Below, piece by piece: positions 16,864 to 38,955 of a stretch of DNA of 64,000 nt. The DNA comes from Bacteroidota bacterium (GTDB taxonomy: Bacteria > Bacteroidota > Bacteroidia > Chitinophagales > LD1): the NCBI GenBank assembly GCA_947475165.1, contig CANJLD010000021.1, positions 1-64,000 on the forward strand. The letters are read 5' to 3'. Position 1 is the first letter of the stretch. The number at the start of each line of letters is the position of its first letter. The notes under the pieces were generated by a model. It was given only the letters and a program-made list of their open reading frames with translations, was not told the origin of the DNA and did no database searches. The translations under genes were made by a program, and so were the position numbers.

Positions 16864-17217
16864 TTAAATCAGAAAAACCCGGATGCGTTGATATATTTTA
16901 AAAGCATCATCAGGGAGATGAGCATAAAATAACCAAATAGATACAGGAGGCTGAACAACCTGTTGCAAAGGAATAACCAGTGGATTGTCGAGAACAACAT
17001 CATTGTAAACAAATGTCAACCGCTCAGAATTGTTTGCGTGTTTATGCAAGTGGTAGTAGTGAACTGCCGAAGAGGAAGAAGAATTCTCTTTTTTATCAGA
17101 ATCGCTATTAAAGAAACTCTTAAAACATTCGGTTGATTCTGCATCCGGCTTTGCCATTACCGCTTCAAAAAAAATAAGATGTAAGCTATAAACGCAGATA
17201 AGCGCAACAGGTTTCAT
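16864..17217 (-). CDS. Small secreted His/Ser-rich protein of unknown function
   Basis: From the ATG at 17217 the protein has 117 residues with a plausible signal peptide (KPVALICVYSLHLIFFEAVMA). Behind it lie a charged segment, a run of five serines (NSSSSSAVHYY) and the His-rich patch HYYHLHKH, which could bind a metal. The C-terminal half is hydrophobic (VIPLQQVVQPPVSIWLFYAH). I do not recognise the family. It lies between the duplicated hairpin elements and the giant amidase gene, on the same strand as the latter and 111 bases beyond its stop. Confidence 0.5.
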   Translation of the reverse strand: MKPVALICVYSLHLIFFEAVMAKPDAESTECFKSFFNSDSDKKENSSSSSAVHYYHLHKHANNSERLTFVYNDVVLDNPLVIPLQQVVQPPVSIWLFYAHLPDDAFKIYQRIRVFLI

Positions 17218-33933: not shown

Positions 33934-34869
33934 ATGAAAAAACTGGGTCTTGCGCTATTGATAATTGTTACGCTGGCTATTCTTATTCCGTTCAGTATTT
34001 TTTATCTGCAACCGGATATGCTTATTTCGAAAGAACAGGCTAAAAGCGAATTGAGTTCTCCATCTTCTCATTTCTTAACCTGGCGCGGTGCCGAAATTCA
34101 TTATACCGATGAAGGAACCGGTTTCCCTTTGTTGATGATTCACGGGTTTGGTGGCGCATACACCAACTTCAGCAAGTTATCAGCTATTATGAAAAGCGAT
34201 TACCGCGTTATCCGTGTCGATTTGCCGGGCTTTGGTCTTTCCGATTTTCCTGAAGTTTCACCAAACGAAAATTATCTGGAAGATTACCGCGAGTATCTTT
34301 CATTTATTCTTGACACGCTTCATCTCGATTCAGTTTATGTTATTGGAAACAGTATGGGTGGAGCAGTAACATGGATGGCAGCCGTTGACCATCCAGATAA
34401 AGTTAAAAAGATTGTATTGCTTGACCCTGCCGGTTACGATTCAGAAAAAGTAGCAGGCAAATTGGCCATGTTTAAATTTAAATCGGTGCGCGGAATTTTT
34501 GAAAAAGGCATGCCACTGTTTATGAGCTGGCAGGGAATACGCAAAGCATATTTTAAAGATGAGCAGATTGAGGACTCAATGGTTATCCGCAATAATAAGT
34601 TTACGAACCGGCAAGGGAATATACGCCATATGCTTAACCTGGCACTCAGCAACCAGTTTCCCGATACTGCACTCATACAAAAAGTGCAATGCCCTACTTT
34701 AATTGTGTGGGGAACGGAAGATGAAATTATTCCGCTGGCACATGCCGAGCGTTTTCACCGCGATATTAAAGGTAGTCAACTTGCCATTATTGAACAATGC
34801 GGACATTGCCCCATGATGGAAGAACCGGTGAAGACAAAAGAGCTATCTGAGAAATTTTTTAGAGAATGA
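33934..34869 (+). CDS. Alpha/beta hydrolase
   Basis: A 311-residue protein with an N-terminal hydrophobic anchor (residues 4-24), then an alpha/beta hydrolase fold: oxyanion HGFGG at 70-74, nucleophile S140 in GNSMGG, acid D263 in WGTEDEIIP and base H291 in EQCGHCPMMEEP. The fold resembles epoxide-hydrolase or haloperoxidase-like esterases; substrate unknown. Its TGA overlaps the ATG of the cellulase gene (ATGA), so the two are translationally coupled. An inverted repeat TCCCGAA/TTCGGGA (33897-33915) lies just before the start. Confidence 0.85.
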   Translation: MKKLGLALLIIVTLAILIPFSIFYLQPDMLISKEQAKSELSSPSSHFLTWRGAEIHYTDEGTGFPLLMIHGFGGAYTNFSKLSAIMKSDYRVIRVDLPGFGLSDFPEVSPNENYLEDYREYLSFILDTLHLDSVYVIGNSMGGAVTWMAAVDHPDKVKKIVLLDPAGYDSEKVAGKLAMFKFKSVRGIFEKGMPLFMSWQGIRKAYFKDEQIEDSMVIRNNKFTNRQGNIRHMLNLALSNQFPDTALIQKVQCPTLIVWGTEDEIIPLAHAERFHRDIKGSQLAIIEQCGHCPMMEEPVKTKELSEKFFRE

Positions 34870-36170
34870 TGAAAAACATCTTACTTCTTTTCTGTTTTCT
34901 CTTTACCGCTCAGATAATTTCGGCACAATCTGTTGCACAACAGCGTTGCGATAGGTTTGAAAAAGGAATGAACCTTTCTAATTGGCTGGAAGCCTATTGG
35001 CAACCCGGTTACCCTACTGCTAATGGTTATACGCGCGATGATTTGGTAAAGATGAAAGATGCAGGATTAAAATCCATTCGCTTGCCCATTGGTTTTGCTT
35101 CTGTAACTGATACGCTTGCTCCTTACAATGTTGATACTGCTCATGCTTTGTTTGCGCGAATTGATTCGGTGATTAGTTGGTGCGATGAACTGAATTTGAA
35201 TTTGATTATTGACAACCACCACAACTGGGATATTTTTAATCAGAACTGGCGAAATAAAATTGACCGGTTCTCACACATGTGGAGTGTGGTATCTGCGCAT
35301 TATAAATATTTAGACCCGGAGCGCTACACTTTTGAGTTGTTGAATGAACCGGCATTTGGCATTGCACTCGATTCGCTGAACATTGTTTTTAATCACGCTA
35401 TTGATTCTATCCGTCAGCATACTGCGGCACACTCTCTTATTGTAAGCCCGAACTTTTCGAGCAACGGTGCTGCGTTTGCTCCGCTTACTCCGCTTGCTGA
35501 TACTAATTTAATTTACACCTGGCACAGTTACGACCCGTATCAATTCACGCATCAGGGGTTTAGTTGGGCGCAGCCGCCTATGCCCAATCCGGAAAGCTTC
35601 CCCGGTTCTTATGATGCCGGTTTATATAATGCCTGGAACACGGTTGTTAGCTGGAAGAATACTTACAACAAACCTGTTTTTTTGGGCGAGTTTGGCACCG
35701 GTAAATTTGGTGATGATGTGAGCCGGTGTAACTGGCTAAATGTTTTCGGCAGTAAGATTGATTCGTTCGGCATGTCGTGGTTTTATTGGGATTGGCGGTG
35801 GGATTTTTCGCTCTTCAACTCCAACGTAATTTCGGAAGACAGTGTAATACCCTGCTTTAAACACACGCTGCATTTGTATGGCGATACTTTAGTTTCTGCT
35901 GTAAATAATTTGAATGCCGGAGAATTACAATTGCAGTTGTTCCCTAATCCTGCATCGGCTACCACCGGTTGCAATTTAGTGGTGAGCAGTTCCGAAGGAA
36001 CTACTGTTACCGTTTATGATGTTACCGGCCGCAAAATATTTCACGAAATGTTTTACCGGCAAACAACCTTACCGGTGCAGTTATTTAACAGCGGTATTTA
36101 TTTGGTGAATATCAGCTATTGGCAGGGCAACCAGCAACGGCAGGAGAGGAGGAAACTGGTGATAGAATAG
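34866..36170 (+). CDS. GH5 family endoglucanase-like protein with T9SS sorting domain
   Basis: The 434-residue secreted enzyme has a signal peptide (LLLFCFLFTAQIISAQ), a GH5 (cellulase) barrel and a C-terminal T9SS domain. The acid/base is E161 in LLNEPAFG, the nucleophile E275 in KPVFLGEFGTG, and DNHHNWD (116-122) is the usual substrate-site motif. The sorting domain has LFPNPAS, VYDVTGRKIFHE and SGIYLVNI. It likely cleaves beta-1,4-glucans or mannans outside the cell. The gene overlaps the hydrolase gene by four bases. Confidence 0.9.
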   Translation: MMKNILLLFCFLFTAQIISAQSVAQQRCDRFEKGMNLSNWLEAYWQPGYPTANGYTRDDLVKMKDAGLKSIRLPIGFASVTDTLAPYNVDTAHALFARIDSVISWCDELNLNLIIDNHHNWDIFNQNWRNKIDRFSHMWSVVSAHYKYLDPERYTFELLNEPAFGIALDSLNIVFNHAIDSIRQHTAAHSLIVSPNFSSNGAAFAPLTPLADTNLIYTWHSYDPYQFTHQGFSWAQPPMPNPESFPGSYDAGLYNAWNTVVSWKNTYNKPVFLGEFGTGKFGDDVSRCNWLNVFGSKIDSFGMSWFYWDWRWDFSLFNSNVISEDSVIPCFKHTLHLYGDTLVSAVNNLNAGELQLQLFPNPASATTGCNLVVSSSEGTTVTVYDVTGRKIFHEMFYRQTTLPVQLFNSGIYLVNISYWQGNQQRQERRKLVIE

Positions 36171-36196
36171 CCCTTCAATTGCTGCTTGTTTCAGTT

Positions 36197-36295
36197 TTAC
36201 ATCTTCACAAACATCTTCCGCGCTATGGCATCATTGGTCTTCAATTCTATAAAGTAAATGCCGGAGGTAAGTGTGCTTACGTCAACCTGTAACCC
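36197..36295 (-). pseudogene. Orphan remnant of a T9SS C-terminal sorting domain
   Basis: On the complement, the sequence from about 36295 down to a TAA at 36197-36199 encodes LQVDVSTLTSGIYFIELKTN followed by DAIARKMFVKM, a textbook T9SS type A domain end. Upstream the frame runs into a perfect 13-bp inverted repeat (36291-36323) and reaches a stop at 36341-36343, with no start codon or secreted protein attached. It is therefore the 3' stub of a lost cargo gene, convergent to the cellulase gene. Confidence 0.7.
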
Positions 36296-36323
36296 CGAAA
36301 GGGCTTCGAACCCTTTCGGGGTT
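36291..36323. repeat. Perfect 13-bp inverted repeat
   Basis: AACCCCGAAAGGG pairs with CCCTTTCGGGGTT around CTTCGAA. It is terminator-like (GC-rich core) and marks the break point of the T9SS-domain remnant. Confidence 0.7.
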
Positions 36324-36355
36324 GGTTTAGTTTTGCCAAATCATTGTTATGTCAC

Positions 36356-36379
36356 GAAAAATAATTGCAATTATTTTTC
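36356..36379. repeat. Perfect 24-bp AT-rich palindrome
   Basis: GAAAAATAATTG is followed directly by its own reverse complement. It ends four bases before the first unit of the 21-bp repeat array. Confidence 0.75.
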
Positions 36380-36383
36380 AAAT

Positions 36384-36698
36384 CATAACGATTATACAAC
36401 GCATCATAACCATAACACGATAAATCATAACCATGATTTATCGCAACATAACGATTATACAACTTATCATAACCATGATAGGATAAATCATAGCCATGAT
36501 TTACCGCAACATAACCATTATGCAACGCATCATAACTATGATACAACAAAACATAGTGATGATTTGGCGTATCGTAACCATGATACGATAAATCATAACC
36601 ATGATTTACCGCAACATAACCATTATATAACGTATCATAACTATGATACAACTAAACATAGCTATGATTTGGCGCATCATAACCATAGTTCGATAAAT
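36384..36698. repeat. Satellite of 15 tandem 21-bp units with higher-order structure
   Basis: Fifteen units of exactly 21 bases, most starting CATAACCATGAT or a close variant, fill 315 bases without a gap. Five unit types occur in the order ABC ABC ADEBC ADEB. The last two 105-bp blocks (36489-36593 and 36594-36698) are about 89% identical, and the first two 63-bp blocks (36384-36446, 36447-36509) are also about 89% identical. Neighbouring units form hairpins: B plus C gives CGATAAATCAT/ATGATTTATCG around AACC. The + strand has an open frame of HNHDxxx heptads and the - strand one of HGYDxxx heptads. I do not call a gene. The spacer from 36699 to 36871 holds the upstream region of the next gene and nothing else I recognise. 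Confidence 0.85.
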
Positions 36699-36871
36699 CA
36701 TTGAGATAATTTTTTAAAGAGAGGTTATAGTAATGGGCGGAGTCTGCCCTCGATAATCGATTTAATCTTTCTATGGTGTGATGAAAATCATTTCATGTTC
36801 TGTTATTTGTCAATAGCATTTTTATAGAAAAAAGCCACGTTTGCGCTTTAATTAAACCAAAAACAAGTATT

Positions 36872-38338
36872 ATGAAAACAAAATTTTTACCTCTCGTTTT
36901 AATCTTTTCCTTCTTTACAGTTATCCTTCAAGCCCAGTCGTTGGTGTGGCATAAAAGCATTCAATCTACCGGTGTGAACTTGCGTGGGGCTGCAGTAGTC
37001 TTATCGCAACAGATTGTTGATTTTCCGTCTGCCGGAAAGGTGGTGGTACACTTTGATGGTGTTTTTACGGCCGATGACGGAGATAGAATTGTACTTGCAG
37101 CCAGTAACCAACCCAATTGGGGCACCAACAACGATAACATTGGGTTATTAGTGCCAGATGCTGCGGCTAACAGACGGTCATTTTCGCATACACGTTCTTA
37201 TGACGTAGTAGCAGGTGCCGATACCTTTTATGCTGTAGGTCAAAATTATGTAGATGAAGCCGGTTCCGGCATAGCCAATATTTATGCTAGCCTTTCGGTA
37301 GAATTTTTCCCTACCTCAGGTACGGCTGCTACAGTTAATCAGGATATTTACTACAACGGAAATTTAAGAGGTAGCACGGTTAATCTCGGCTCGCTTAACA
37401 TCAACCCAACAGTTGCCGGAAAAATGGTAGTTCGCTTTGATGGCTACGTTCATTCAGATGTAGGTGATTTAATTGTGGTAGCTGCAAACAATGCGGTTTC
37501 ATGGGGGTCAAACGATGGTAATGTATCGGTAGAAGCTGCTAATGCTACTTCTCGGTTTTTGCCTTTCTCACACACGAGGGTATATGATGTAACGGCCGGT
37601 GCATATACTTACTATGCTGTAGGTGAAAACTATGTAAATACATCAGGTAGTGGCAATGCTTATATTTATGGAAACCTATCTGCTGAATTTTTGCCTACAA
37701 CTGGCCCTACCGCAACATTTACAGGTCTTTCAAAAACCGGTGTAGCTATAAGAACCAATGCTGTGGCGTTAGATTCGGTAACCCTAACTGCTCCTACTGA
37801 CGGAAAAGTATTGGTTACATTCGATGGAAATTGCAATTCAGACCTTGGCGACCGTATTGTTCTTGCCGCTAGTGATACCAGAGACTGGGGTACCAACGCT
37901 GATAACGTAAATGTTGAAGCACCCAGCGCAGTTGTAGATGTCAATTCTTTCTCGCACACTCGCTCTTATGATGTAACTGCGGGCACGCACACTTATTATG
38001 CAGTAGCTCAGAATTATGTAGAAACAGGAGGCTCGGGTAGTGCATCGATTTATGGCTCTTTAACTGCGAAGTTTTATGCCAACGCAAGCACTGGGGTAAA
38101 AGAAATTACAACTACCGAATTTAATATGTTCCCAAATCCAACTTCAGGCAAAATCAATATCTCATTAGCCGGACCTGCCGGTAGTCTTGAAATTAAGCTG
38201 GCAGATATGAATGGTCGTATTATTAAAAATGAAAAAATGGATAATGCCAATTCGTATCAGCTTAATGTTGCAGACTTAGCAGCAGGCATGTATTTTGTAA
38301 CGGTGAATGGAACTGTAAAACGAATTGTAAAAGAATAA
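36872..38338 (+). CDS. T9SS-secreted protein with three copies of an unnamed beta-rich domain
   Basis: A 488-residue protein with a signal peptide (FFTVILQAQS), three tandem domains of about 130 residues and a T9SS sorting domain (MFPNPTSGKINISL, MNGRIIKNEK, AGMYFVTVNG). Each domain repeats GKVVVHFDG, DGDRIVLAAS, WGTNNDN, FSHTRSYDV and YYAVGQNYV. The pattern looks like a jelly-roll or lectin-type domain, but I do not recognise a family. A terminator follows 44 bases after the stop. It lies directly after the satellite island. Confidence 0.75.
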   Translation: MKTKFLPLVLIFSFFTVILQAQSLVWHKSIQSTGVNLRGAAVVLSQQIVDFPSAGKVVVHFDGVFTADDGDRIVLAASNQPNWGTNNDNIGLLVPDAAANRRSFSHTRSYDVVAGADTFYAVGQNYVDEAGSGIANIYASLSVEFFPTSGTAATVNQDIYYNGNLRGSTVNLGSLNINPTVAGKMVVRFDGYVHSDVGDLIVVAANNAVSWGSNDGNVSVEAANATSRFLPFSHTRVYDVTAGAYTYYAVGENYVNTSGSGNAYIYGNLSAEFLPTTGPTATFTGLSKTGVAIRTNAVALDSVTLTAPTDGKVLVTFDGNCNSDLGDRIVLAASDTRDWGTNADNVNVEAPSAVVDVNSFSHTRSYDVTAGTHTYYAVAQNYVETGGSGSASIYGSLTAKFYANASTGVKEITTTEFNMFPNPTSGKINISLAGPAGSLEIKLADMNGRIIKNEKMDNANSYQLNVADLAAGMYFVTVNGTVKRIVKE

Positions 38339-38381
38339 TACTTACCAGGGTCAGCGGTGGCTGACCTAAACTAATATCAAT

Positions 38382-38414
38382 AAAAAGCGCAAAGGTTTTC
38401 CCTTTGCGCTTTTT
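38382..38414. terminator. Intrinsic terminator
   Basis: A perfect 14-bp stem (38382-38395 with 38401-38414) with core GCGCAAAGG/CCTTTGCGC and flanking A/T runs separates two convergent genes. Confidence 0.85.
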
Positions 38415-38448
38415 TAGTTCCAGCATTTCAGTTTGTGGCTTATAAAGA

Positions 38449-38955
38449 TTATTGAAAGGTATCTTTAATCTCTTTTGCCATTTCGAAGGTATTGTCTCCA
38501 ATAAATTTTAGTTTACCTGATAGGGCTTTCTTTAGCTCCCGGTAATTGTGGTGATAGAATGCGGACATGGCAAATACTTGTTTGCCATCTTTAATTACGT
38601 ATAAAAATTCGTAAGTGGTTCCATACAGCACGGGAAGAAGTGTGGTTGTGTAGCCATCTAATTGGCGGCCATCAAATTTTTGTTCAGCGCCCAGCCCATA
38701 AAATGACCTGATGGATATTGAGTAGCTATCAACTTGCACTACTATTAGCTTTTTCCTGAATTCAACGGTTATCCAAAAAGCTACCAGGGCAAAGAAAAAC
38801 GTAACGAAAGTTAGCATAGCGTATATGCCTATGGTAATGGTTCCGTCATTTGGCATAAAAAACAGCAGATAACCCAAAACTGTGAAGGAGGCAGTAAGTA
38901 TTACCAATAGTAAAAGCGGTAGTGCAGCCCAGTATGTAAATTTCGACTTAATCAT
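38449..38955 (-). CDS. Membrane protein of unknown function, two helices plus PH-like domain
   Basis: The 168-residue protein has two hydrophobic segments (about residues 8-33 and 43-62) followed by a beta-rich cytoplasmic part (KLIVVQVDSYSISIRSFYGL ... YEFLYVIKDGKQVFAMS) and a C-terminal helix. The layout resembles small bacterial PH-domain membrane proteins, but no signature is certain. It has no obvious functional neighbour. Confidence 0.55.
   Translation of the reverse strand: MIKSKFTYWAALPLLLLVILTASFTVLGYLLFFMPNDGTITIGIYAMLTFVTFFFALVAFWITVEFRKKLIVVQVDSYSISIRSFYGLGAEQKFDGRQLDGYTTTLLPVLYGTTYEFLYVIKDGKQVFAMSAFYHHNYRELKKALSGKLKFIGDNTFEMAKEIKDTFQ

Follow-up and report, generated by a model that had tools for sequence, protein, structure and literature searches.

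The closest known counterparts of the repeat array described here are the 23-nt BrickBuilt minisatellite of Porphyromonas and the arrays of plasmid centromeres. In replication iterons, direct repeats recur at roughly two helical turns along the same helix face; spacing and helix face are what they have in common with our arrays, whereas the arrays here are many and unrelated. The BrickBuilt report describes, for Porphyromonas gingivalis, a 23-nt minisatellite within a MITE that has a leader and a tail, is intergenic, is present in 19 copies and has promoter activity (PMC4596501). In plasmid centromeres such as parC and tubC, tandem repeats precede an operon, and a small binding protein also represses the promoter (PMC5016525). 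TAACTGA heptamer repeats are described as intergenic direct repeats that often precede start codons, with a few Bacteroidetes included (PMC4679880).

The array analysed here lies in a stretch of 64,000 nucleotides, which as a whole is called the window. BrickBuilt and the element analysed here both occur in Bacteroidetes, have spacerless tandem units with conserved and variable sites and a common leader, and are intergenic with several copies per genome (PMC4596501). BrickBuilt itself has a 23-nt unit, one sequence family, a tail, IS5-like terminal repeats and indels at 0-6% (PMC4596501), whereas the arrays here have 21-bp units of many unrelated sequences and are associated with gene families; those of the window type show no shared right end or tail and no indel. 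Tandem repeats in an upstream position are common to parC, tubC, the omega-parS iterons and our arrays, and side-by-side loading of an oligomer, a feature of parC and tubC, is proposed here (PMC5016525). In contrast to parC/tubC, our arrays lie on chromosomal contigs, differ from one another many times over within a genome, and in many cases are not beside a gene for a DNA-binding protein. A parC/tubC-like position upstream of the gene for a putative binder was seen at 9/15 loci of a helix-turn-helix (HTH) family; the window array has no such neighbour. Compared with the single 7-bp TAACTGA motif (PMC4679880), the 21-bp arrays consist of unrelated motifs.

The features of the window locus are listed in Table 1. 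Its 15 contiguous units keep exact register without an indel, TRF reports periods of 21, 63 and 105, and clustering of the units gives five types in the order ABCABCADEBCADEB. Unit number, type order, block identities of about 89% and a perfect 11-bp hairpin between neighbouring units had all been described in the initial annotation and were confirmed by register check, TRF and clustering, the hairpin now being located. That annotation had overlooked the leader, the degenerate end unit and two further copies in the genome. A two-unit pattern with at most 3 mismatches found 10 matches in the window and 0 in 100 shuffles. Some columns of the unit hardly vary whereas others are almost random, so that a conserved core alternates with freer linkers. 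An inverted E-like unit inside the leader is an internal repeat, not proven as a terminal repeat. A CRISPR array was rejected, since the units abut directly, have diverged and form duplicated blocks, without unique spacers.

Table 1. Features of the array locus and its flanking genes (positions in the window)
Feature	Position	Strand	Remarks
Gene 5' of array, T9SS-sorted 434-aa protein	34866..36170	+	
50-bp leader	36334..36383	+	starts TGCCAAAT; in register with units; common to two other loci of the genome
Perfect 24-bp palindrome	36356..36379		centre of leader
15-unit array of 21 bp	36384..36698	+	core CATAAC.ATgAT (dyad ATCAT-AACC-ATGAT)
First 63-bp block	36384..36446	+	88.9% identity to second block
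Perfect 11-bp inverted repeat	36418..36443		4-base centre
Second 63-bp block	36447..36509	+	
First 105-bp block	36489..36593	+	88.6% identity to second block
Second 105-bp block	36594..36698	+	
Degenerate in-phase last unit	36699..36719	+	stop in HN frame
Gene 3' of array, T9SS-sorted repeat protein, 488 aa	36872..38338	+	starts 173 bp after array

The product of the upstream gene is presumably a glycoside hydrolase of family 5. The T9SS sorting domains of the two flanking genes assign the organism to Bacteroidota. Between this gene and the array, a remnant of a T9SS sorting tail was recognised by eye on the minus strand (36183-36290), and similar stretches occur elsewhere in the genome. Just 5' of the leader lies a REP-like inverted repeat, CCCCGAAAGGG...CCCTTTCGGGG (36293-36321), with similar copies at many places in the genome itself and in congeners. 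In the two nearest congeners the two genes that flank the window array sit on different contigs, and the homologs of the downstream gene are also near 21-bp arrays, of different sequence.

A search of the genome (3.88 Mb, 45 contigs) and its relatives, as the initial annotation had proposed, was successful only within the genome, where leader and array are found twice more (C13:28269-28641 and C20:65212-65605; pieces 75-92% identical). The two-unit pattern detected no window-type array in another 17 genomes of the genus, several of them incomplete, and blastn detected none in 118 relatives that include these 17. The sharing of leader and array by three loci implies that dispersal has happened; since the type order of both sister copies is ADEBC repeated, the 105-bp super-unit is probably older than this dispersal. 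With no homolog found outside its own genome, conservation of the window array's core is visible only between paralogous copies. All 48 units of the three window-type arrays are 21 bp long, with no indel as against 69 substitutions. The arrays overlap no ORF except those that they create themselves. The three loci follow one plan, with the leader first, then the units and then a codirectional gene, and this fits a role close to the promoter; the gene starts 173, about 473 and about 249 bp from the array (the last two distances calculated by hand), and the right ends differ by eye. A three-unit pattern gave 16 matches, 12 on genome contigs and 4 on viral ones. By eye, 13 of them resemble low-complexity runs of His/Asp codons, two (L017, L021) 21-bp arrays of Bacteroidota and one (L018) an array of another unit. 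The L017 array (640-1036 of a Bacteroidales MAG contig) is situated between two stretches that by eye resemble integron attC sites.

The initial annotation had called both strands open and had listed a repetitive peptide among its options. The strands are open in that there are ORFs of 148 aa (plus) and 99 aa (minus); stops are, however, no fewer than in column-shuffled arrays. A peptide expressed from the array, whether the His- and Asn-rich heptads of the HN frame (ORF 36258-36704) or the product of another frame, would agree with the HN frame being open at all three window-type loci, but these have no common start codon or N-terminus in it. The 69 substitutions between unit copies include 17 that are synonymous in the HN frame, with 13.3 expected (p 0.16). 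Counting all 69, the HN frame gained 0 new stops (2.7 expected, p 0.049) and frame +1, which itself contains stops, showed 26 synonymous changes (18.3 expected, p 0.017), both p-values being nominal over six frames; they rose to 0.197 and 0.124 when each distinct substitution was counted once, and no frame then reached 5%. Avoidance of stops relative to column-shuffled copies was found in 0/21 arrays of the class described below at p < 0.05, and six of seven congener arrays, L163 being the exception, have a stop in every frame. These tests give no clear sign that the window array is a gene; coding is not supported, and we regard a peptide as extremely improbable.

In the nearest congener, a different sequence of the same 21-bp period lies beside the homolog of the downstream gene, and this triggered a survey by period. 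Identity at lags 10 to 60 was scored in 105-bp windows with a threshold of 0.52, and ORF-poor stretches (ORFs of at least 120 aa over less than half of the length) were kept; genomes were sampled rather than scanned whole, and gene calls were mechanical. In 464 kb of the genome itself (the window and 400 kb from three contigs), 22 periodic ORF-poor stretches were obtained, eight at lag 21, eight at lag 42 and at most two at every other lag. After merging of overlaps the rows at 21/42 amount to 11 arrays (one weak, L089), to which the window array, hidden by the ORF mask, is added. A single shuffle of the same sequence in 50-bp blocks gave no periodic rows. At L089 (1788-2192) we noted a 41-bp tandem repeat that is outside the 21-bp class.

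Among congeners, all four rows from 400 kb of G009 were at lags 21/42, as were all four from another 400 kb over seven congeners; these came from G007, G010 and G015, with no rows in the parts sampled from G005, G013, G014 and G016. Twenty relatives outside the genus (at most 20 kb each; 295 kb, of which 36 kb ORF-poor) gave nine rows, none at 21/42, and two genomes of the same order (80 kb, just 3.4 kb ORF-poor) gave none. In other families, G268 (140 kb, on contigs picked for carrying an fn3-like gene) had five rows at lag 21, six at 42 and one each at 27 and 40; from G361 (120 kb), which also has a 21-bp array, came single rows at 21, 42 and 16, and six ORF-poor stretches (L226-L231) with a 14-bp period. 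Most arrays have unit sequences of their own; besides the window family, only the L086/L103 family was seen at two places (by eye). The window array is thus a member of a class defined by its 21-bp period and not by sequence; the initial annotation, with one array before it, had not recognised this class or its frequent link to genes. The literature searched, in which subscription papers were mostly outside reach, contained no description of such a class.

The first survey showed two kinds of gene next to arrays, and each was then searched for as a family. The first encodes a Cro/CI-like HTH with a leucine zipper; Pfam HTH_3/HTH_26 score below the cut-off, and profile matches are DBP48 and the P22 C2 repressor. 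Fifteen of its loci occur in 7 of the 18 genus genomes searched, nine with a 21-bp array just upstream. One of them, L168, carries two different 21-bp arrays in tandem 5' of the HTH gene (971-1452). The second family, of about 220 aa, has 23 loci in 6/18 genus genomes, 14 of them with an array upstream, L175 being counted only at a looser threshold of 0.50. We loosely name it fn3-like (Pfam fn3 is sub-threshold in one member and absent in the query; NCBIfam gave nothing). Two of the 23 (L180, L184) are copies of each other (88% over 1.7 kb), and two (L188, L189) have less than 70 bp of sequence 5' of the gene, too little to reveal an array. A protein 3' of the L021 array matched this family at a non-significant E of 0.096 and was not counted, and the fn3-like protein of L170 had no match in plasmid and phage records.

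Neither family had a lag-21/42 array called 3' of its genes. In the background, arrays lie within 600 bp upstream of 14 and downstream of 19 among 970 called genes, which leaves a clear upstream excess for both families (Fisher p 3e-18 for fn3-like, 2e-12 for HTH). Because arrays L095, L096 and L100 had suggested the families, their loci (L170, L166, L165) can be left out, and 13/22 and 7/13 remain. A more independent test is the phylum-wide count: among 395 sampled genomes, with the seven best candidates per genome scored, an fn3-like gene reached E 1e-5 in the genome itself and in G268 and G361, and in these two a 21-bp array is upstream of 6/10 copies (p 6e-9), including two 80% identical paralogs (L207, L212) with similar arrays. 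One further fn3-like copy of G361 with an array is outside this count. As for all 24 sampled arrays, five are upstream of HTH or fn3-like genes, 12 of other genes and seven of no called gene, which speaks against a purely regulatory role; four (L087, L107, L116, L158) lie between convergent genes.

To relate array sequence to protein relatedness, 26 array profiles with bounds set by eye were compared in 325 pairs. The three best-ranked pairs all belong to nearest cross-species homologs (fn3-like, 54% identity; HTH, 73%; fn3-like, 34%), orthology being presumed from best matches. The remaining pairs of two trios rank 6, 9 and 12 and the genome's own paralogs L165/L166 rank 13, with more distant homologs or unrelated loci between them. 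By eye, three fn3-like loci share the core GAATA-nn-TATTC and two HTH loci the core (A/G)CGTYAA. Protein identity and array similarity are correlated at HTH loci (r 0.75, Mantel p 0.0006; 8/9 loci, L168 left out) and weakly at fn3-like loci (Pearson p 0.009, Spearman 0.07; 18 loci, with five further array-bearing loci omitted). L207 and L216, fn3-like paralogs of one genome with 74% identity, have unrelated arrays; the fn3-like protein is therefore probably not the binder. Taken with the similar cores of presumed orthologs, this suggests that a core is held per locus and often replaced between paralogs. The window array has no resemblance to any of the 26 gene-linked arrays compared.

These results bear on the possibility that the arrays are non-functional minisatellites or a MITE-borne satellite of the BrickBuilt kind that spread and turn over, with the 21-bp unit arising by mutational chance or as the length that slippage favours. 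The hierarchical 63/105-bp duplications, the three dispersed copies that share a leader and were not found in 17 congeners, the precedent of a 23-nt minisatellite with leader and tail in Porphyromonas and the unrelated arrays of some paralogs would all suit such an origin. It does not lead one to expect a single period across arrays of unrelated sequence, window-type arrays free of indels, similar cores at presumed fn3-like orthologs with 34-54% protein identity or a strong, one-sided upstream association, and we consider it unlikely, while giving it appreciable weight.

Dyad symmetry exceeded that of column-permuted profiles (p <= 0.05) in 9/15 survey arrays and in 12/17 fn3-linked arrays, the array-bearing loci L171, L175, L182, L184, L192, L210 and L168 having been set aside in this test; dyad z is 4.3 for the window array and 3.6 and 4.7 for its two sisters. 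HTH-linked arrays showed dyads in 0/8 cases against the same kind of control. Permutation within units, with correction for all axes, supported covarying arms at 5% in 8/21 arrays for period 21 (window, C13, L086, L094, L095, L107, L158, L163) and in 3/21 for period 42 (C20, L086, L095); as units are paralogs, the covariation events are not independent. Intrinsic curvature arising from the 21-bp phase was rejected: in a rough wedge model 19/21 arrays were not above column-permuted ones, 97% of permutations equalled or exceeded the window array, and only L158 and L081 were curved at 5% or less. Two arrays were also inspected individually. L158 (8479-8961) lies between two paralogous convergent genes, and its dyad arms change along the array (TTCTAA/TTAGAA, TCCATT/AATGGA, TCACA/TGTGA). 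The end of the L087 array (17088-17130) is by eye a nearly perfect palindrome of about 41 bp.

Symmetry of this kind could also act in RNA, as a transcribed hairpin-rich leader or trailer that controls the stability or translation of the next gene's RNA. The window array folds with z = -6.85 relative to shuffled sequence, fn3-linked arrays end a few tens of bases 5' of start codons, the L158 dyads change on both arms, and pairing is permutation-supported in 8/21 arrays. However, such a fold is expected of any palindrome array, and palindromes are equally a DNA signal; hairpins need neither exact 21-bp spacing nor helical phase, HTH-linked arrays are not palindromic, four arrays lie between convergent genes, and Rfam returned only sub-threshold scores over 34500-38500, none reaching gathering. 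An RNA-level element appears distinctly unlikely. Template-switch correction of quasi-palindromes is a mutational mechanism that perfects palindrome arms, and dyads could arise in this way without selection. It would account for the joint change of the L158 arms, but leaves the fixed 21-bp spacing, the non-palindromic HTH arrays and the upstream association unexplained, and we judge it very improbable.

The best explanation, to which we give about an even chance, is that the window array consists of tandem dyad-symmetric DNA-binding sites every two helical turns and belongs to a 21-bp-spacing class mostly without common sequence. The initial annotation had offered a protein-binding array, a recombination hotspot or a repetitive peptide, and from the sequence the first appears favoured by exact phase without indels, a conserved core, dyads and recurrence of the period in other sequences. 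Two-turn spacing, absence of indels in the window-type arrays, conserved cores and dyads fit sites in double-stranded DNA to which a protein binds as a dimer or oligomer. Such a protein would occupy adjacent sites next to one another along a single face of the DNA and, once bound, would control the neighbouring promoter; on this best reading the arrays may be likened to iterons or to parC/tubC. At HTH genes the gene's own product would be the likely binder of its array (autoregulation), and the window-type arrays would be three targets of one putative binder, each 5' of a codirectional gene. Against binding sites of this kind stand the 0/8 HTH-linked arrays with dyads and covariation in only 8/21 (period 21) and 3/21 (period 42) arrays, and a single sequence-specific binder does not explain the changing dyad arms of L158.

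A wider reading, which we put forward tentatively and at clearly less than an even chance, is a chromosomal class in Bacteroidota defined by spacing only. Its members would have mostly locus-private sequences, serving as 'address' arrays that may differ even between closely related genes of one genome, and would be read by oligomerising proteins as operators or as centromere-like filament nuclei. Repeat families are usually found by sequence; a class defined only by period escapes such searches, and its members would end up catalogued as minisatellites with no relation to one another. Roughly twelve arrays in one eighth of a single genome, together with two favoured gene families, one of them array-linked in distant relatives, indicate a common regulatory or chromosome-organising architecture.
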